Shown: positions 1,710 through 10,823 of the stretch, piece by piece
Numbering within the stretch: position 1 is the first letter of the stretch
How the letters are laid out: every line of letters starts with the position of its first letter
Origin: Helicobacteraceae bacterium
GTDB lineage: Bacteria; Campylobacterota; Campylobacteria; Campylobacterales; SZUA-545
Length of the DNA: 58,332 nt
Reading direction: 5' to 3'
Assembly: GCA_031275395.1 (NCBI GenBank)
Contig: JAISOU010000013.1
Span: 1-58,332, forward strand
Position numbers and translations under genes: made by a program
The notes under the pieces: generated by a model
Database searches by the model: none
What the model saw: the letters and a program-made list of their open reading frames with translations, nothing else
Told to the model about the DNA's origin: nothing

Positions 1710-2351
1710 ATGGCTAGAAGATTGCCAGTTTATTTATTGTTAGACACTTCGGGATCAATGAGCGGCGAGCCAATCGAAGCGGTTAAAAACGGTATGCAAA
1801 TACTTGTTTCAACCCTGCGGCAGGATCCGTATGCGCTTGAAACGGCGCATTTATCGGTGATCACTTTTGATAGCGACGCAAAACAACTTGTCGCGCTAAC
1901 GGAGCTTAGCTCGTTTCAAATACCGAACATTAGAGCAAGCGGTACGACCTCGCTAGGCGAGGCGCTTTGCCTGCTTGCGTCGAAGATCGATAGCGAAGTG
2001 GCAAAGACGACTCCGGAACAAAAAGGAGATTGGAAACCGCTCGTTTTTTTAATGACGGACGGATCGCCGACAGACGATATCAGAAAAGGTATCGACGCGA
2101 TCAAAAAGGTCAAAACGGGAATTATCGTCGCTTGCGCGGCGGGATCGGGCGCGGATACGAACGTTTTGAAGCAAATCACCGAAGTTGTTGTTTCGCTTGA
2201 CACGACAGATGCGGACGCGATTAAAGCGTTTTTCAAATGGGTCAGCTCTTCCGTAACAACGGGTAGCCAAAAAACCGAGGAGGGGCAAAAAGAGATTGGC
2301 GGACTAGACGATCTGCCGCCTCCGCCGCCCGAAATCAATATCGTGCTCTAA
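1710..2351 (+). CDS. TerY-like von Willebrand A domain protein (copy 1)
   Basis: A 213-residue single vWA domain with a complete MIDAS metal site: DTSGS (12-16), Thr 80 in the SGTTSLG loop and Asp 117 in LMTDGSP. It matches the TerY branch of vWA proteins found with TerD, PP2C and a kinase. It ends in the tail LPPPPPEINIVL (202-213), a proline run shared with copies 2 and 3 and absent from copy 4. A strong ribosome site (AAAGGAG) lies 11 bases after the terD stop. vWA/TerY proteins are thought to act as metal-dependent protein-interaction modules in the Ter complex. It has no zinc ribbon, unlike copy 4. Confidence 0.88.
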   Translation: MARRLPVYLLLDTSGSMSGEPIEAVKNGMQILVSTLRQDPYALETAHLSVITFDSDAKQLVALTELSSFQIPNIRASGTTSLGEALCLLASKIDSEVAKTTPEQKGDWKPLVFLMTDGSPTDDIRKGIDAIKKVKTGIIVACAAGSGADTNVLKQITEVVVSLDTTDADAIKAFFKWVSSSVTTGSQKTEEGQKEIGGLDDLPPPPPEINIVL

Positions 2352-2370
2352 ACTAAAAAAGGAGAAAAAA

Positions 2371-3000
2371 ATGGCTGTTTCGTTAAAAAAAGGGCAAGGC
2401 GTAAGTCTTAAAAAGAGCGAAAACGATCTTTCGATGGTAACAATCGGGCTTGGTTGGGACGTCAAGGAAGAAAAAAAGGGGCTTATCGCAAGCTTATTGG
2501 GCGGCGGCAAAGACGACGACTACGATCTGGACGTCGTAGCGTTTTTATGTCATAGCGACGGCAAGATACATAATGTCGGCAATAATATGTTAGTAGGCGG
2601 CGATATTGTATTTTTCAACAATTTGCGTCATTCGAGCGGCTCTATTTGGCTTACGGGCGATAACCGAACGGGCGCGGGCGAAGGCGACGACGAGCAGATT
2701 ATCGTAAAACTAAACGATCTGCCCGCGCAGTTTGCGAAAATTGTCTTTATCGTTCAAATTTATCAAGGCATTCAGAAACATCAGAGCTTCGGCAACGTCC
2801 AAAACGCCTTTATTCGCGCCGTCGACGGCAAAAATAAGGAGATGGTTCGCTTTGATCTAAGCGGCGGCGAAAGCTTTACGCGATATCGATCGCTTTTGTT
2901 TGCGGAGTTGGTTCGAGAAGAGGGCGGCTGGAAATTTAACGCTATCGGCTCTCCCGATGCAAGCGATTCTTTTGTCGATTGGGTTAAGCGGTATATCTAA
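2371..3000 (+). CDS. TerD-family protein with short insertion
   Basis: The second TerD-type protein of the cassette, 209 residues, opening MAVSLKKGQG. YDLDVVAF (about 51-58) and [13 protein letters not shown] (about 96-108) mark the calcium-binding loops. Compared with the first TerD protein it carries extra residues after GLGWD, a Gly/Lys/Asp-rich stretch (about 35-50, including SLLGGGKDDD). This resembles TerD-like members that have a flexible loop before the first acidic motif. The start is set by AAAGGAG at 2359-2365. Its stop codon is immediately followed by the ATG of vWA copy 2 (3001), so the two are probably translationally coupled. Confidence 0.9.
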   Translation: MAVSLKKGQGVSLKKSENDLSMVTIGLGWDVKEEKKGLIASLLGGGKDDDYDLDVVAFLCHSDGKIHNVGNNMLVGGDIVFFNNLRHSSGSIWLTGDNRTGAGEGDDEQIIVKLNDLPAQFAKIVFIVQIYQGIQKHQSFGNVQNAFIRAVDGKNKEMVRFDLSGGESFTRYRSLLFAELVREEGGWKFNAIGSPDASDSFVDWVKRYI

Positions 3001-3654
3001 ATGGCTAACAGACGTTTGCCCGTTTATATTCTGTTGGACGTTTCGGGTTCTATGAGGGGCGAGCCGATCCGTTTAGTCAACGTCGGATTGCAGGCGGCTC
3101 TTAGCGCCATGCGGCAAGATCCGTATGCGATTGAAATCGTTTATCTTTCCATTATTTCGTTTGACGTGGAAGCGCGAGAGATAATACCGCTGACCGCGTT
3201 AGGCGAAATACGGTTAAAAGAAATTACGGCGGCGCGATCGGGCGCGTTTTGTCTTGGCGCGGCTTTAGAGCTTTTGGTTGAACGCGTCGATCGCGACGTA
3301 AAGAAAACTGCGGCAGAAGCAAAAGGCGATTGGCATCCGTTATTGTTTGTGATGACGGACGGCAATCCAAGCGATTTGCAGGCGTATCGCAAGGCGATCG
3401 GCGAAATCAGAAAGCGCAAGTTCCGCTCTATTTTAGCGTGCGTCGCAAGTCCAAAAGCAAAGCAAGAGACGCTTTTGGAGCTTACGGATCGCGTTGTGGC
3501 GTTAGATATTATGGATACGGACGCTTGGCGGAATGTTTTTTGGGACGCTTTTGATTTCATTGAAAGCTCCGTTAAGGGCTCTATGCGCACATTTGACGGG
3601 CTCTATGATTTGCCGCCGCCTCCGCCCGAAATTAGCATAACTGTGAAACGATAA
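3001..3654 (+). CDS. TerY-like vWA protein (copy 2) with altered MIDAS
   Basis: A 217-residue vWA protein and a close paralogue of copy 3; several stretches of more than 40 bases around 3080-3130 are identical between the two genes, indicating recent tandem duplication. DVSGS (13-17) and the MTDGNPSD loop are kept. The MIDAS threonine found in copies 1 and 3 (SGTTSLG, SGATFLG) is replaced by Phe 83 (SGAFCLG), so metal binding may be weakened or lost. It ends with a PPPPPEI tail. The ATG follows the TerD stop directly. The C-terminal helix (WRNVFWDAFDFIESS) differs from the other copies, so this paralogue may have a different partner. Confidence 0.87.
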   Translation: MANRRLPVYILLDVSGSMRGEPIRLVNVGLQAALSAMRQDPYAIEIVYLSIISFDVEAREIIPLTALGEIRLKEITAARSGAFCLGAALELLVERVDRDVKKTAAEAKGDWHPLLFVMTDGNPSDLQAYRKAIGEIRKRKFRSILACVASPKAKQETLLELTDRVVALDIMDTDAWRNVFWDAFDFIESSVKGSMRTFDGLYDLPPPPPEISITVKR

Positions 3655-3666
3655 GGACGGAGCATA

Positions 3667-4305
3667 ATGAGTAGAAGGCTACCTGTTTATATTCTACTAG
3701 ACACTTCGGGGTCTATGAGGGGCGAGCCGATTCATTCGGTCAACGTCGGATTGCAGGCGGCTCTTAGCGCCATGCGGCAAGATCCGTATGCGTTAGACAG
3801 CGTCTATCTTTCGGTCGTTACGTTCGACATAGAAGCTAGAGAGCTTATACCGCTTACGCCGCTAAGCGACGTGCAACTAAGCGAAATAACCGCGCCGCAA
3901 TCCGGCGCGACTTTTTTGGGAGCTGCGTTGAGGCTTTTAATTGAGCGCGTCGATCGCGACGTGAAGAAAAATAGCAAAGACGTAAAAGGCGATTGGCGTC
4001 CATTATTGTTTGTGATGACGGATGGCAGCCCTAGCGATCTGCAAGCCTATCGCGACGCGATCGTAGAGATCAAAAAGCGCAATTTTGGTTCTATCTTGGC
4101 GTGCGCGGCGGGTCCGAAAGCGAAAAAAGAGGCGCTTTTGGAGCTTACGGATCGCGTTGTGGCGTTAGATACTATGGATAGCGCCGCGTTTAACGGATTT
4201 TTCAAATGGGTTTCAGATTCAGTGTCGATTGGTTCGAGTAGCAACGGGTTAACGGAGCAGGTAACTTTGCCTCCTCCGCCCCCCGAAATTAACGTCGTAA
4301 TGTAA
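3667..4305 (+). CDS. TerY-like vWA protein (copy 3)
   Basis: A 212-residue vWA protein with an intact MIDAS set: DTSGS (12-16), Thr 82 in SGATFLG, and Asp in VMTDGSPSD. It is very similar to copy 2 across residues 1-150 and similar to copy 1 in the C-terminal helix (FFKWVSDSV). The protein closes with LPPPPPEINVVM, the same proline tail as copies 1 and 2. It is preceded by AAGGACGGAG and followed after 10 bases by the ATG of copy 4, so it is in the same operon. It is presumed to be part of the cytoplasmic Ter complex; no enzymatic motif is present. Confidence 0.88.
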   Translation: MSRRLPVYILLDTSGSMRGEPIHSVNVGLQAALSAMRQDPYALDSVYLSVVTFDIEARELIPLTPLSDVQLSEITAPQSGATFLGAALRLLIERVDRDVKKNSKDVKGDWRPLLFVMTDGSPSDLQAYRDAIVEIKKRNFGSILACAAGPKAKKEALLELTDRVVALDTMDSAAFNGFFKWVSDSVSIGSSSNGLTEQVTLPPPPPEINVVM

Positions 4306-4315
4306 AGGAGTGTCA

Positions 4316-5350
4316 ATGAGAAGGCTTCCCGTTTTTTTTCTGTTGGATTGTTCGGAATCTATGGTCGGCGATAAGTTAGACAAGATGCAAGAAACGATGA
4401 ACGCGATCGCAACGGCGCTTCGCTCTAATCCTTACGCGCTCGAGACGGTTTATATGTCCGTGATCGCCTTTGCGGGGACGGCTAAGACGATCGCGCCGCT
4501 TACGGAGCTTTATTCGTTTTACCCTCCGAAACTACCGCTTGGGGGCGGCACTAGTTTGGGGTTAGCGTTAGATACGCTTATGAACGAAATGGATAAGGCG
4601 GTCGTCAAAACGACTGCGGAGCAAAAAGGCGATTGGAAACCTTTTGTCTTTTTGATCACAGACGGGCGATCGACGGATAAAACAGACGTCGCCGCTTCTC
4701 GTTGGCAGGCGAAATACGCTAAAAGAGCGACCCTGATCGCTATTAGTCTTGGCAAAAGCGCGGACTTTACGTTGCTAAAAAAGCTAACGGAACATGTGAT
4801 TATCTACGAGGAAGCGGACAAAAACGAATATACCGCGCTAATCAAATGGATTTCGGATTCGACGATCGCGCAGAGTAAAAGCGTAGGCGAAGGCGTCGAG
4901 AATAACGCGCTCCCAAGTCTTGACGAGCTTGCGCTTACGTTAGTTAAAGATCCGCCCGCAAGCGTCGACGAAGCGTGCGTTGTGCTGACGGGGCGATGCC
5001 AAAAAAACAAGAAGCCGTATCTGATCAAATATGAACGATCGCAAATCGAATTAGGCGGCGGAAAACACAAAGAGAACGTTGTGGATTACGATTCGGTAGG
5101 CGCGTTTATGATCGACGAAGAGTATTTTAAGTGGTCGCAGGCGCAACCTTCCGCGATTAAAGTTAATACCTCGCTTCTAAACGGAGCGCCCGGTTGCCCA
5201 TATTGCGGTAATCACACGGCTTTTGCGGTTTGCAGTTGTGGCAAATTAACCTGCACAAGCGGCGGCGCGGCAGTTTGCCCTTGGTGCGGAGAGGAACTGT
5301 TTTTTAGCGCTGGAGGCGGCGATTTCGACGTTGGTAGATCGCTAGGATAG
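4316..5350 (+). CDS. TerY-type vWA protein with C-terminal zinc ribbon
   Basis: A 344-residue protein with an N-terminal vWA domain (MIDAS: DCSES near residue 10-14, GGGTSLG, LITDGRS) and a C-terminal cysteine cluster, CPYCG...CSCG...C...CPWCG (about 290-325), matching the zinc-binding TerY-C module. It is the canonical TerY of the TerY-P triad, directly upstream of the PP2C and kinase genes. The start at 4316 is preferred because AAGGAG lies 5 bases upstream; an in-frame GTG at 4310 overlaps that site. Unlike the three other vWA genes it lacks the PPPPPEI tail. The middle region (about 200-290) has no recognised fold. Confidence 0.9.
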   Translation: MRRLPVFFLLDCSESMVGDKLDKMQETMNAIATALRSNPYALETVYMSVIAFAGTAKTIAPLTELYSFYPPKLPLGGGTSLGLALDTLMNEMDKAVVKTTAEQKGDWKPFVFLITDGRSTDKTDVAASRWQAKYAKRATLIAISLGKSADFTLLKKLTEHVIIYEEADKNEYTALIKWISDSTIAQSKSVGEGVENNALPSLDELALTLVKDPPASVDEACVVLTGRCQKNKKPYLIKYERSQIELGGGKHKENVVDYDSVGAFMIDEEYFKWSQAQPSAIKVNTSLLNGAPGCPYCGNHTAFAVCSCGKLTCTSGGAAVCPWCGEELFFSAGGGDFDVGRSLG

Positions 5351-5358
5351 GTTTTTCA

Positions 5359-6819
5359 ATGGGGGATACGCTTTTTAGTATATTGAGGCTGACGGAAAAT
5401 CAAATATCACTGTTGGCCAACGACAAAGTTAGCGACAACGAACTATACGAATTTGTTAAACGACCAGAGGCGATCAACGCGGCAACCGCGTTTAAAGGAT
5501 CGATAGCGTCTGAGTGGAAACAATACAAGGAGGAGGCAAATATGAACAACACGAAAGCCGACGCGATAAGGCAATACGCGGAGAATCAAGGAAGTTCCGA
5601 AACGGCTAATGATACGCTTAAAAAAATTGACGCGGCAAATACGACAAAAGAGCCGTATAAGCGCGTGCAATTTAAATTGCCGAATGCAAAAAAAGGCGAG
5701 AAATACGAAGGAAAGATTACAGCCGTCGAAACGCCAAACGTTACGGTTACAGACGTTACAATCAAAGACGATAATCTTGGATTAAAGTTTGATCCGCAAA
5801 CGCAAACGATTAGCGGCATAGCGCAAAAAAGCGGCGAATTTACATTTGATCTACGGTATAAAATATCGCTAAATGAAACGCGCACCGAAAAAGTCTTTTT
5901 ACTTATCAATAAAGATTCATGGGAGATGTGGCAAGAGATAGAACCAGACAAAAATCTACCGCACCCTAAGGCTCATTCGGATCGCAAAAAGATAACGCAA
6001 AACGAGAGCGGCGTTTATATCGCGGCGGCAAGCAAAAGAGGGCGATCGCACGCGCATGTGGGCAGTTTTCGCGACGACGATTTTTTTATCGATTGTTGCG
6101 ACGATTGGAGCGTTCTGGTCGTTGCGGACGGCGCGGGAAGCGCCAAATTATCTCGAGTCGGCTCAAAAGAGGCAAGTAACGCGGCAGGAAAAACGCTATC
6201 TAAAAAATTAAAAGAAGATGGCGACAAGCTGACCGAACTAATAAAACCTTGGGACGGAACAACAAAGCAAGACAAGATCAACTCTATTGTAAGCGCCGCG
6301 TTTTGGGAGGCGGTAACGCGCGCGATAAATAGCGTAGAGAGCGAATCGAAATCCAATAACGCCCAGCCTAGAGATTTGGCGACGACTCTGCTTGCGGCGA
6401 TCGCTAAAAGAATTAACGGCAGGGTTTTTATCGCCGCGTTTTGGGTGGGCGACGGCGTAATCGCGGCGTATAGCGGAAACGACAAAGAGAAGATCAGGAT
6501 TTTAGGCAAGCCCGACGAAGGCGAATACGCGGGGCAGACGCGCTTTCTTGATCGCGCTATAGTAAACGATTTTGCAAGCCGAATGAAGGTAGGTTTTTTC
6601 GCAGACATAAAAGCGATCGTTTTAACGACTGACGGCGTTAGCGATCCTATGTTTGAAAACGGATTAAAGGATTCTGCAAAATGGGACGAATTATGGAGCG
6701 CTATCACCCCCGCCTTACAAAACGAAAATCCGGATGAAAAATTGCTTGAATGGCTTGATTTCAAAGCGCGAGGTTATCACGACGATCGCACAATAGTCGT
6801 TCAATGGTTTGAAGCGTAA
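5359..6819 (+). CDS. PP2C-type Ser/Thr phosphatase with N-terminal Ig-like domain
   Basis: A 486-residue protein in three parts. Residues 1-100 are polar and helical. Residues about 105-190 look like an Ig/cadherin-like module of the putative-Ig type (GLKFDPQTQTISGIAQKSG, then alternating hydrophobic strands). Residues about 220-486 are a PP2C phosphatase with metal-binding aspartates in VVADGAGSAK (about 255), FWVGDGVIAA (about 363), LTTDGVSD (about 424) and HDDRTIVV (near the C-terminus). It is the phosphatase of the TerY-P triad and would reverse phosphorylation by the kinase encoded 2 bases downstream. No signal peptide is seen, so the Ig-like module is presumably cytoplasmic, which is unusual. 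Confidence 0.87.
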   Translation: MGDTLFSILRLTENQISLLANDKVSDNELYEFVKRPEAINAATAFKGSIASEWKQYKEEANMNNTKADAIRQYAENQGSSETANDTLKKIDAANTTKEPYKRVQFKLPNAKKGEKYEGKITAVETPNVTVTDVTIKDDNLGLKFDPQTQTISGIAQKSGEFTFDLRYKISLNETRTEKVFLLINKDSWEMWQEIEPDKNLPHPKAHSDRKKITQNESGVYIAAASKRGRSHAHVGSFRDDDFFIDCCDDWSVLVVADGAGSAKLSRVGSKEASNAAGKTLSKKLKEDGDKLTELIKPWDGTTKQDKINSIVSAAFWEAVTRAINSVESESKSNNAQPRDLATTLLAAIAKRINGRVFIAAFWVGDGVIAAYSGNDKEKIRILGKPDEGEYAGQTRFLDRAIVNDFASRMKVGFFADIKAIVLTTDGVSDPMFENGLKDSAKWDELWSAITPALQNENPDEKLLEWLDFKARGYHDDRTIVVQWFEA

Positions 6820-6821
6820 CG

Positions 6822-8324
6822 ATGGCGGTTATTAAAGGTAGAACGTTTGACGGAAAAAACGTCGAATGGGAAGATAAGATTATCGGTTCGGGGGCTATGA
6901 AGGACGTTTATTTTTCGCCCGATCGATCTTACGTGGTGTGTTTTTATAAAAATGCGCAAGACTTTCAGGCAAAAGAACGTTTGCAGATGATCATGGGCAA
7001 ATACAAGGAGAGTATTTTTAATCAAGACGGCGGCAAATATTGGCAGGATCTTTTTTGTTGGCCGTCGTCCATGATTGAACATAACGGTAAACTTGGGATT
7101 GTCGCGCCAACTTATTCTAAGCGTTTCTTTTTTGAATACGGCTCGATCAATAACGATGCGTTGGGTATTAAAGGCAAAGAAAAAGAGGGCAAATGGTTTG
7201 CCGCGCCAAAACTGCGAAATCGACACGTCGATCCTAAAGAGCTTGGCGATTGGTTAAATCACATAAAAATATGCCTTCTTATAGCGCGGGCGGCTCGTAG
7301 AATGCACGCGGCTGGACTTGCGCATTCCGATCTAAGTTATAAAAACGTTTTGGTCGATCCTTCCGGCGGTTTTGCGTGCGTGATCGATGTCGACGGACTT
7401 GTCGTGCCGGGCAAATATCCGCCCGACGTTGTGGGAACGCCTGATTTTATCGCGCCCGAAGTGGTTAAAACAAGCCATCTAAAAAAAGACGACCCCGCGC
7501 GTTGTCTTCCTCGACGAGAAACGGATCTGCACGCTCTAGCGGTTTTGATATATATGTATCTTTTATATCGGCATCCGCTTCGCGGCGGCAAGGTATATGA
7601 TATTAACGACGAACAACGCGACGAACTTCTAAGCATGGGTGAAAAAGCGCTTTTTGTAGAACACCCGGCCGACAAATCCAACCATATAAGACTGAAAAAT
7701 GCGGAAAAATGGGAACTGCCTTGGGCGGATACCGCCAAATTGCCCTATTCGCTAACCGGCCCGTATCTTAAAAAGCTTTTTGAACGCGCGTTTATCGACG
7801 GATTACACAATCCATCCGCGCGTCCAAGCGCGAATGATTGGGAGATAGCATTGGTCAAAACCGTCGATCTGATCCAACCGTGCCAAAATCCAAAATGCGC
7901 TCAAAAGTGGTTTGTTTTTGACAACTCAACTAGTCCGAAATGCCCTTTTTGCGGGACTCCTTATAAGAGAAAATTGCCTGTTTTAAATCTCTATTCGTCG
8001 CGCTCAAAAGGCGCTTTTAGACCAGACGATCATCGTATTATGGTTTGGTCGGGACAATCGCTTTTTTGGTGGCAAGCAAATCGTTTAATCGCGCCAAATG
8101 AAAAACTTTCCGACGCGCACAAAAAGCGCGTGGGATATTTCGTTTTACATAAGCAATCATGGTGGTTAGTTAATGAAGCGTTGCCCGATCTTACCGACAA
8201 AACGGGCGGGGAAACCAAGCCGATCGCTATAGGCGACAAAATCGAACTAACCGACGGCAAACAGATATTGTTAGATCGCAACGAAGGCGGACGACTTGTC
8301 GTCGTGCAAATGGTGGAAGGATAA
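6822..8324 (+). CDS. TerY-P triad protein kinase with zinc ribbon and FHA-like C-terminal domain
   Basis: A 500-residue protein kinase-like protein. Kinase features are a glycine loop GSGAMKDVY (22-30), candidate ATP lysine in FYKN (43), catalytic loop HSDLSYKNVL (about 168), DVDG in place of DFG (about 189) and GTPDFIAPE (about 205-213). A cysteine cluster CQNPKC...CPFCG (about 354-380) follows. Residues 385-500 form a separate domain rich in aromatic strands, ending WWLVNE...PIAIGDKIELTDG, whose pattern resembles an FHA phosphopeptide-binding fold (my inference). The same domain occurs in the membrane protein at 9582-10178. The gene starts 2 bases after the phosphatase stop and forms the third member of the TerY-P triad. 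Confidence 0.88.
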   Translation: MAVIKGRTFDGKNVEWEDKIIGSGAMKDVYFSPDRSYVVCFYKNAQDFQAKERLQMIMGKYKESIFNQDGGKYWQDLFCWPSSMIEHNGKLGIVAPTYSKRFFFEYGSINNDALGIKGKEKEGKWFAAPKLRNRHVDPKELGDWLNHIKICLLIARAARRMHAAGLAHSDLSYKNVLVDPSGGFACVIDVDGLVVPGKYPPDVVGTPDFIAPEVVKTSHLKKDDPARCLPRRETDLHALAVLIYMYLLYRHPLRGGKVYDINDEQRDELLSMGEKALFVEHPADKSNHIRLKNAEKWELPWADTAKLPYSLTGPYLKKLFERAFIDGLHNPSARPSANDWEIALVKTVDLIQPCQNPKCAQKWFVFDNSTSPKCPFCGTPYKRKLPVLNLYSSRSKGAFRPDDHRIMVWSGQSLFWWQANRLIAPNEKLSDAHKKRVGYFVLHKQSWWLVNEALPDLTDKTGGETKPIAIGDKIELTDGKQILLDRNEGGRLVVVQMVEG

Positions 8325-8335
8325 AGGAATAAATA

Positions 8336-8416
8336 ATGAAAATATTTTCGGGGAAAAGTTTGAAAACGTTAATTGTTTTTTCGCGCGTCCAAACCATGAA
8401 AAAGGATAAAAGATGA
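8336..8416 (+). CDS. Possible 26-residue leader peptide gene
   Basis: A 26-codon reading frame (begins MKIFSGKSLK, ends KKDKR) has AAAGGAAT upstream and its TGA overlaps the ATG of the TPR gene at 8413. The overlap would allow translational coupling. The peptide is basic and has no recognisable similarity. It may simply be a chance frame in the 88-base gap between the kinase and TPR genes. Confidence 0.18.
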   Translation: MKIFSGKSLKTLIVFSRVQTMKKDKR

Positions 8417-9180
8417 GCAAAAAAACCAATTGGGCGGCTATTTTCGCAATAATAGTTGGGTTGGTTCTGGTTGTTGTGAAAGATTATAAATCCGATTTGC
8501 GATCAGCGGACAAAGAAAGAACAAAAACCGTCAATCAAATATTTGTTCGCGGCAAAAATGCGTATGACAGGAACGACTATAACGTCGCAATCGAACAATT
8601 TTCATTGGCGCTTGAGCTTGAACCTAACAACGCATTTGCTTATGCAAGACGCGGCGTCGCTTATGCTAGACAAGAGGATTACGACAAAGCGATTATAGAT
8701 TTGGATAAGGCTATCAAGCTCGAACCCAATAACGCTTTTAGTTATGTAATGCGTGGAACTATTTATGCCGAATTGGGCGATCACAAAGAAGCGATCGTCG
8801 ATTGCGGTCAAGCGCTTAAGCTTGACCCGAATGGCAAATTGGCGTTTTTTGCATATAATTGCCGCGGTTACGCTTATGTTAAATTGGGCGATTACAGCCA
8901 AGCGGTTATCGATTTCGATCGCTCGCTCAAACTTGATCCCAATTTTGCCCACTCATACCATAGTCGCGGCGAGGCTTACGCGGGGTTAAGCAAGCATAAC
9001 CAAGCTATAGCTGATTTTGATAAAGCTATTGATATATTTAACTCGGCTACGTCAATTGATCGAGAAGCACTCGCGTTAGCCTATTGCGATCGCGGCAAAG
9101 TTTATGAAAGTTTGGGCGATCTAAAGAGATCGAACGCCGATATTAAAAAGGCGCAAGAGATCGGCAAATGCGAATTGTAA
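8413..9180 (+). CDS. Membrane-anchored TPR-repeat protein
   Basis: A 255-residue protein with an N-terminal membrane segment (about 8-25, WAAIFAIIVGLVLVVV) followed by about six tetratricopeptide repeats from residue 42 on (for example AYARRGVAYARQEDYDKAI and SYHSRGEAYAGLSKHNQAI, with the LEPNNAF/LDPN linkers typical of TPRs). TPR arrays are protein-docking scaffolds; the single anchor puts it on the membrane, probably facing the periplasm or cytoplasm according to the lysines around the segment. It lies 88 bases after the kinase gene on the same strand and may be a partner of the Ter complex, but that link is positional only. AAGGA precedes the ATG. Confidence 0.82.
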   Translation: MSKKTNWAAIFAIIVGLVLVVVKDYKSDLRSADKERTKTVNQIFVRGKNAYDRNDYNVAIEQFSLALELEPNNAFAYARRGVAYARQEDYDKAIIDLDKAIKLEPNNAFSYVMRGTIYAELGDHKEAIVDCGQALKLDPNGKLAFFAYNCRGYAYVKLGDYSQAVIDFDRSLKLDPNFAHSYHSRGEAYAGLSKHNQAIADFDKAIDIFNSATSIDREALALAYCDRGKVYESLGDLKRSNADIKKAQEIGKCEL

Positions 9181-9229: not shown

Positions 9230-9567
9230 ATGAAAAAAATAATGTTGGCGTTAGCGCTATCGGCAAGCGCGTTTGCTTGCTCAATCAATTACACGGTAAG
9301 TCTTTTGGCTTTTAAGGACGACGAGATAGTCGAATTGCGATCGGGTTTGCCTGGATCATCGTCGATTGTGAGCAGAAAACGCGCGATTAACGGCAATGTC
9401 GGTTTTATAATTTGTGCGTGGGTTATTACTTTTTGGCGATTGGCGAAGGGGAAAGCGTCAGCGTAACAAACGCAAGCTATTTTCAAGATAATAGCGATTA
9501 CTCTAGCAAAATCGTTCGCCAACGCGGAAGCGGCAACGTTTCTACGCGATCCAGAACAAGTTTGTAA
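9230..9567 (+). pseudogene. Small secreted protein, frameshifted
   Basis: The frame opening at 9230 (AAAAGGAGCG site upstream) encodes a clear signal peptide, MKKIMLALALSASAFAC, and about 45 further residues before drifting into an unlikely Trp/Lys-rich end that stops at 9466. A shift of one base near 9400 gives a protein-like continuation (CVGYYFLAIGEGESVSV...) that runs to a stop at 9567, for a total of about 112 residues. I read this as one gene broken by a single-base indel, either real or a sequencing error. The product would be exported, possibly a lipoprotein since the signal ends in SAFAC. No family is recognised. Confidence 0.55.
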
Positions 9568-9581
9568 TATATGATTACAAA

Positions 9582-10178
9582 ATGAAACAGAATATAATAC
9601 ATTCTATTATATATTTTCATTTTTGGACTATTTTAATTATATGCTTATTGATATGTCTTTTATTGTCTCCTTTTCTTTTCGCGTTATATAAATTAGAGCC
9701 TCATATTATTCAAGAGGCTTTCAAATCTCTTTTTGCAAAAAAATATATAAACGCTTTTAATTTATTTCTAGAAGCAGGCAAAAAATCGATCGATAAAATA
9801 CGAATCGAGCATGCAAAAATACGCGCAAAAAAGAAAAAACGGATACCTATGTTATACTTATATTCGCAGATACATAGCGGCGAGTATAAATACGATAATA
9901 TAAAAATCATCGGCGGATCGGCACAAATTTTATATTTATCGCATATAGACCCGCGTATTATCAAGAAAAGCGATCGAGGTATTTGCGTGGCACATTTTGA
10001 AAACAATTCTAACTCATGGTATCTCGTGAACGACAAAATTGACTATTTGGCTTTATTGTCAAAAAATATTGAAACAAAGATTGCGATAGGAAACAAAATA
10101 AAACTAATCGACGACCAGCAATTAATTCTTTTCAAACGAGACAATAATAATAAAATAGCGATCGTCAAATTCATTTAG
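9582..10178 (+). CDS. Membrane protein carrying the kinase-type FHA-like domain
   Basis: A 198-residue AT-rich gene. Residues 8-38 are strongly hydrophobic (one long or two short membrane segments, ending LLLSPFLFALYKL). Residues 40-87 are a basic helical linker ending RAKKKKR. Residues 88-198 align along their length with the last 116 residues of the Ter kinase: IPMLYLYS matches LPVLNLYS, NSWYLVND matches SWWLVNE, and KIAIGNKIKLIDDQQLILF matches PIAIGDKIELTDGKQILL. The domain would lie in the cytoplasm. Its presence 1.3 kb downstream of the kinase suggests that it competes with or recruits the kinase's ligand at the membrane (inference). The start is at 9582; no strong ribosome site is visible. 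Confidence 0.78.
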   Translation: MKQNIIHSIIYFHFWTILIICLLICLLLSPFLFALYKLEPHIIQEAFKSLFAKKYINAFNLFLEAGKKSIDKIRIEHAKIRAKKKKRIPMLYLYSQIHSGEYKYDNIKIIGGSAQILYLSHIDPRIIKKSDRGICVAHFENNSNSWYLVNDKIDYLALLSKNIETKIAIGNKIKLIDDQQLILFKRDNNNKIAIVKFI

Positions 10179-10274: not shown

Positions 10275-10823
10275 CTACAAAGCGAGCATGCGATCTAGCG
10301 CGACTTTAGCCCATTTGCACTCCTCTTCTTCGACCTCGATTTCGTTCATAAAAGTTTTGTTTTCCACGCTTTGCATAACGCATAACAGATCGCGCAAAGT
10401 CGTTTCATTCATCGTGGGACACTCGGGTTTTGTAGCGCTAAGAACAAACGTATTTTTTTCGCGTAGGCGATGAACGAGATTAAACTCCGTACCTACGGCG
10501 ACTAACTGTTCAAGCGGTTTCGATTTTACCCATTTGATTATTTGGCTGGTAGAGCCGACAAAATTGGCGAGATCGACCACGCTTGGATCGCATTTGGGAT
10601 GAACGGCGATCAGAATATTCAGGTATTTGGCGCGGTAAAACTTGATATCCGATGGCGCAAAAAGCTGATGCACCGAACAAAAGCCGTCGTATTCGATTAG
10701 CGTTTTGGAGGCAAAAAATCCGCGTCTTTACCCAACACAGCCGCGCTAATGCCGATTTGCTTTGCTAGATTTAGCCCCAAACAGCGATCTGGCGTAAAAA
10801 AAATCTTTTTGCCGCTTTTTAGC
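10275..10823 (-). pseudogene. nadA: Quinolinate synthase NadA, C-terminal remnant
   Basis: The minus strand encodes the C-terminal 60 percent of NadA, the iron-sulfur enzyme that makes quinolinate for NAD. Recognisable blocks are [61 protein letters not shown] and TKPECPTMNETTL, the last two cysteine blocks being cluster ligands. The first 125 or so residues, including the first ligand cysteine, are missing. A one-base frameshift near 10697-10705 puts a TAA after FLPPKR; the frame resumes with TLIEYDG. The truncated end abuts the stop codon of the next gene upstream. A functional NadA would have to be encoded elsewhere. Confidence 0.88.

Follow-up and report, generated by a model that had tools for sequence, protein, structure and literature searches.

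A genus-restricted, membrane-anchored paralogue of the FHA-like C-terminal domain of the ter-locus kinase

The open reading frame at 9582..10178 (+ strand, ATG start, 198 amino acids) of a 58,332-nucleotide stretch of DNA from a Helicobacteraceae bacterium, hereafter the window, encodes a membrane-anchored protein with a paralogue of the FHA-like domain that ends the ter-locus kinase, and this paralogue is restricted to a single genus. Both the extent of the reading frame and its position within a ter island had been proposed in an earlier sequence-only reading of the window and were borne out here. As for its role, we tentatively propose as most likely, with a probability of roughly 45%, that the protein either tethers a partner of the Ter phosphorylation complex to the membrane or competes for it, and that its binding surface has changed with respect to that of the kinase.

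The anchored protein and the ter island

The protein begins with a single hydrophobic helix (residues 2-38; 9582..9695, +) that, according to the AF2 model and the hydropathy profile, reaches membrane-spanning length (peak 19-mer hydropathy 3.07, at residue 17). It is followed by a basic helical linker (residues 40-84; 9699..9833, +; AF2 helices 40-51 and 55-83) and by the FHA-like domain (residues 85-198; 9834..10175, +), the latter identified by BLASTP, AF2, Foldseek and profile-profile comparison. This order of anchor, basic linker and domain had been noticed previously, and the hydropathy and the excess of basic residues (15 K/R versus 5 D/E in residues 36-90) agree with it. Given this charge bias, the positive-inside rule predicts an N-out/C-in topology in which the FHA-like domain would lie on the cytoplasmic face of the membrane. 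No significant Pfam match was found for the linker, and none of the families in Pfam, NCBIfam and PADLOC matches the anchored paralogue.

The genes of a TerY-P triad are adjacent to each other in the same window (4310-8324), i.e. a TerY-type vWA protein with a TerY_C metal-binding domain (4310..5350, +; PF15616, E 8e-44; PF00092, E 3e-13), a PP2C phosphatase (5359..6819, +; PF13672, E 2e-44) and the Ter kinase of 500 amino acids (6822..8324, +; Pfam Pkinase, E 3e-8). As the sequence-only reading had it, the kinase's copy of the domain follows a zinc ribbon, with the invariant cysteines C354, C359, C374 and C377; this FHA-like tail comprises residues 382-500 (7965..8321, +) and was identified by BLASTP, alignment, AF2 and Foldseek. 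None of the PADLOC TerY models matched the window triad, and the kinase gave weak general kinase matches only. The vWA genes of the island are duplicated: three of them (at 1710, 3001 and 3667) lie, together with two TerD genes, ahead of the TerY-C gene (window 1710-4305).

The FHA-like tail belongs to the regular make-up of the common ter-locus kinase, also on IncHI2 plasmids. It is present, C-terminal to the zinc ribbon, in all kinases of the 80 related-kinase loci collected, which come from Pseudomonadota, Bacteroidota and Campylobacterota plus one record labelled Actinomycetota, and 2245 plasmid records match it. The kinase is the same as that of IncHI2 plasmids, where it is annotated as 'lipopolysaccharide kinase InaA family'. 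The tail (window kinase at 6822-8324, homologues L012-L091) is thus a more general result than the anchored copy itself. Among these loci we also noted two separate ter-type kinase loci (L014 and L016) on two contigs of one Zoogloeaceae metagenome-assembled genome, Im510_bin20.

Homology and predicted fold

Residues 85-198 of the anchored protein align with residues 382-498 of the kinase in BLASTP (29% identity, 55% positives, 54.7 bits, E 2e-13), and when the whole genome was searched with the anchored protein the kinase tail was the sole other significant match (E 6.8e-9). Profiles built from the anchored copies and from the kinase tails match each other with a probability of 99.3% (E 1.9e-20, 109 columns), so the relationship is significant at the profile level as well, where a lack of similarity would have spoken against homology. 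The alignment offered in the sequence-only reading thus holds as far as homology is concerned, while its details need correction: the shared region starts at about residue 85 rather than 88, and gaps are present, one of them a deletion of 4 residues from the anchored copy. One could argue that the similarity is due to chance or that the gene is an assembly artefact, given that the assembly is fragmented (96 contigs) and that the neighbouring gene is frame-broken. The E-value and the profile-profile probability speak against this explanation, and an independent full-length homologue, 63% identical, in another genome (G006) refutes it, so that we consider it practically negligible.

Structure prediction and an FHA fold search had been suggested as a check, and both lend support to an FHA-like fold. 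Mean pLDDT was 92.6 in the AF2 model of the anchored protein and 87.8 in that of the kinase tail, and the strands of the two models are collinear; the two predictions have alignment rows in common and hence are not fully independent. In Foldseek searches against the PDB, FHA domains occupied almost all high ranks for both proteins with probabilities near 1, the best E-values of the two domains being moderate (3e-3 to 1e-2); the best structural matches include the FHA domains of APLF, ArnA, DgcB, Rv1747, Mek1 and KAPP. In view of these ranks, an FHA beta-sandwich holds as a fold prediction for the anchored domain and the kinase tail. Foldseek found nothing significant among viral structures.

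At the sequence level the picture is different from that of a Pfam FHA domain. Neither the anchored domain nor the kinase tail matches the Pfam FHA model (PF00498), no Pfam family spans the kinase tail, a sequence search of the PDB gave nothing significant, and hhalign against 33 Pfam-FHA domains reached a probability of 6% at best, i.e. no sequence-profile similarity. The canonical GR...SxxH phosphothreonine motif is found in 27 of the 33 Pfam-FHA controls, as opposed to none of the 67 kinase tails and none of the three anchored copies. Since both the motif and sequence-level support for FHA are absent, phosphothreonine recognition of the canonical type is not expected for either domain.

Residues kept and lost in the anchored copy

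Taking columns that are at least 90% conserved among the 67 kinase tails (37 columns), the window's anchored copy has kept 16 (about 43%) and lost 21. The residues kept are P386, L388, L390, Y391, S392, G397, D402, Q412, H418, F440, W447, L449, N451, L457, L476 and V495, in kinase numbering, where some letters stand for the family consensus from which the window's own kinase differs (e.g. Q at 418). Between predicted strands 2 and 6, a stretch equated with the FHA ligand loops by strand order, W417, N420, P425, N426, E427, G438, Y439 and H443 are replaced or deleted. The three anchored copies have a pattern of their own in common, S417, H418, D420, C436, F440, W447 and N451 (kinase numbering), with altered residues at sites that are near-invariant in kinase tails. 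Judged from these sequences, the anchored domain has retained core residues and altered its likely binding surface.

This bears on the idea, put forward in the sequence-only reading, that anchored protein and kinase have one and the same module for binding a ligand or phosphopeptide, by which the complex, or its phosphorylated target, would be brought to the membrane. The homology and the shared FHA-like fold are in its favour, as is the retention of W447, N451, Q412 and H418. Against it, W417, N420, E427, R491 and Q496, positions at which the 67 kinase tails vary little or not at all, have without exception been substituted or deleted; the intact copy of the window also differs at R405, P425, N426, Y439 and H443, and the GR/SxxH motif is in neither domain. 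The "same" module, and with it recognition of one phosphopeptide by both domains, is not supported: 21 of 37 conserved positions are lost, many of them in the segment assigned to the FHA ligand loops. We therefore rejected duplication with an unchanged ligand as the leading explanation, the conserved surface of the kinase tails not being kept in the anchored copy, and we regard it as improbable.

Distribution and gene neighbourhood

Stand-alone copies of the domain were found in three genomes of one genus, i.e. the window genome, G006 with its full-length homologue, and G001, in which the copy is an N-terminally truncated remnant. The isolate names of the named relatives belong to a metagenome-bin series that we take to be, probably, from termite guts. 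Among 399 genomes of the order the domain occurs in six, and only the same three have a second copy. In every genome carrying one, the anchored copy lies just downstream of the ter kinase, and no anchored copy was found in genomes without a ter kinase. If the ter islands of the genus and of its nearest relative are taken together, three of the four have the anchored copy just after the kinase. The fourth, L012, is the closest ter island: its kinase is 93% identical to that of the window and the island can be aligned up to the kinase stop codon, where the similarity ends, and no second domain copy was found at this locus. Past the stop codon, L012 (11500-17398) has genes for an AraC-like regulator and hydrolase-like proteins instead.

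Farther away, 24 kinase-bearing whole genomes of other groups have one domain copy per kinase and no stand-alone copy, none was found in 295 genomes of the order of Dysgonomonas, and the 86 loci searched (about 1.55 Mb; 80 of them contig kinase matches) contain none outside the genus. A search for the pair across genomes with TerY-P triads had been proposed, and these loci and genomes show that the pair is not general. With three genomes of one genus, a remnant in one of them and absence from L012, it is too strong to call the anchored protein a Ter component in the general sense, as had been implied earlier. A phage, viral or plasmid origin of the anchored protein was considered and rejected. 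No relative turned up in viral contigs or phages, and no plasmid match covered 80% of the query; among the plasmid matches listed, query residues 89-198 were matched, under kinase annotations where there were any.

The gene directly upstream of the anchored gene (9231..9569, +) encodes a small secreted protein, and its frame is broken in the window. Its homologue in G006 is intact (112 amino acids, with a signal-peptide-like start) and matches the window in two pieces that lie in different frames (E 1e-21 and 2e-17); the split frame may reflect either genuine decay or a fault of the assembly. The small gene ends 12 nt ahead of the ATG at 9582, and the spacing of the pair is 12-15 nt in the window and G006. 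In G001 the start of the small gene is joined directly to what is left of the anchored domain, an arrangement that one would expect a deletion to produce. The cassette is thus decaying in two of the three genomes, with the partner gene broken in the window and the anchored gene truncated in G001. No convincing ribosome-binding site was seen before the anchored gene in the window or in G006, which makes translational coupling to the upstream gene possible. On the other side of the anchored gene, beside the ter island, lies a truncated second nadA (window 10275-10709, -) with its C-terminal part only (profile 155-295); an intact nadA is found on another contig of the genome.

These arrangements raise the main rival to the tether proposal, namely that the secreted and the anchored protein form an accessory cassette that merely adjoins the ter island and has an envelope- or conflict-related role independent of Ter. 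The pair stays together in the window and G006 while the genes between it and the kinase differ, a TPR protein with an N-terminal hydrophobic segment in the window (8413..9180, +; at that place not conserved in G006 or G001) and a 160-amino-acid hydrophobic protein in G006. The decay or absence of the pair in sister islands fits this explanation too, as does the low GC content of the anchored gene (30%; kinase 46%, window 49%). On the other hand, the FHA-like domain was otherwise found only in ter kinases, and all anchored copies are situated just downstream of one. On balance we think of an independent cassette as conceivable though unlikely.

Evolution of the anchored gene

Between the window and G006 the anchored gene shows a dN of 0.25 and a dS of 1.15 (dN/dS about 0.22), the changes being mostly at third codon positions, while the corresponding values for the kinase are a dN of 0.11 and a saturated dS of 2.6. 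The anchored gene is constrained between the two species, less so than the kinase. In the free tree the three anchored copies group together (100/100) outside all 67 kinase tails, on a stem so long (about 4-6 changes per column) that the placement is unreliable; a constrained topology that unites them with the kinase tails of their own genus was not rejected (p-AU 0.25). Low GC and the very long branch leave room for a foreign origin and an unrelated role.

The constrained topology would also suit a local duplication of the kinase 3' end that diverged quickly and is now mostly non-functional, the gene being on its way out, as would the remnant in G001. A dN/dS of about 0.22 and a frame that is intact in two species do not agree with this, nor do the long stem and the position outside all kinase tails in the free tree, and we find this course of events quite improbable.

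Proposed role

In the tether or competitor proposal, the anchored protein would act at the inner membrane, holding there some partner of the TerY/PP2C/kinase complex through a protein-binding surface divergent from the one on the kinase tail. The proposal draws its support from the homology, the fold, the anchor with its charge bias, the constraint, the linkage to the ter island and the conserved pattern peculiar to the anchored copies; it is weakened by the decay of the cassette in two of three genomes, the absence from L012, the low GC and the long branch. A role at the membrane shared by the anchored copy and the kinase tail is only a hypothesis. More specifically, we speculate that the kinase tail, as a degenerate FHA fold, may recognise a Ter partner without phosphothreonine, and that the anchored paralogue might dock by the same principle through an altered surface, so placing the complex at the inner membrane or competing for it there; this extended version is doubtful.

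Comparison with known systems

It is useful to compare the anchored protein with the FHA-containing and Ter systems described so far. With respect to the Pfam FHA domain (PF00498) the predicted fold is alike, while the Pfam match, the profile similarity and the GR/SxxH residues are lacking. Type VI secretion systems contain an Fha/PpkA/PppA module in which an FHA adaptor is paired with a Ser/Thr kinase and a PP2C phosphatase, and the FHA adaptors of such kinase/PP2C modules (e.g. the type VI secretion Fha) have canonical phosphothreonine-binding residues. The window resembles this module in that an FHA-type protein stands apart from the kinase and the phosphatase, yet the anchored copy is without those canonical residues. 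An FHA-like tail that is not seen by Pfam provides a concrete docking domain to test for the ter-locus kinase, and the anchored copy, being a natural variant, is of help in separating residues of the fold from those of the probable binding surface.

Clinical isolates commonly carry the ter operon, whose physiological function has yet to be clarified (PMC12054061). The TerY-P triad and its kinase are already known (PMC11090510, PMC7699616, PMC10889362); the papers covered depict the C-terminus of the kinase as a zinc ribbon or, for antiphage relatives, as an OB-fold, and in them we found no FHA-like kinase tail mentioned. In gene order, the window triad with its vWA and TerD neighbours resembles an IncHI2A plasmid: the one examined in detail has vWA, TerD, vWA, TerY-C, PP2C and kinase genes, and the window has one more vWA gene in a closely similar order. 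Relative to the kinase of such triads, the anchored domain is homologous to the C-terminal domain behind the zinc ribbon, but the anchored protein has neither kinase domain nor zinc ribbon and carries a membrane helix instead. Stand-alone antiphage TerY-P systems have the triad of vWA, PP2C and kinase in common with the window (PMC7699616, PMC10889362). Their kinase reportedly carries a fused OB-fold, and the CoCoNuT-associated one a zinc ribbon (PMC11090510), whereas the kinase of the window combines a zinc ribbon with an FHA-like fold.
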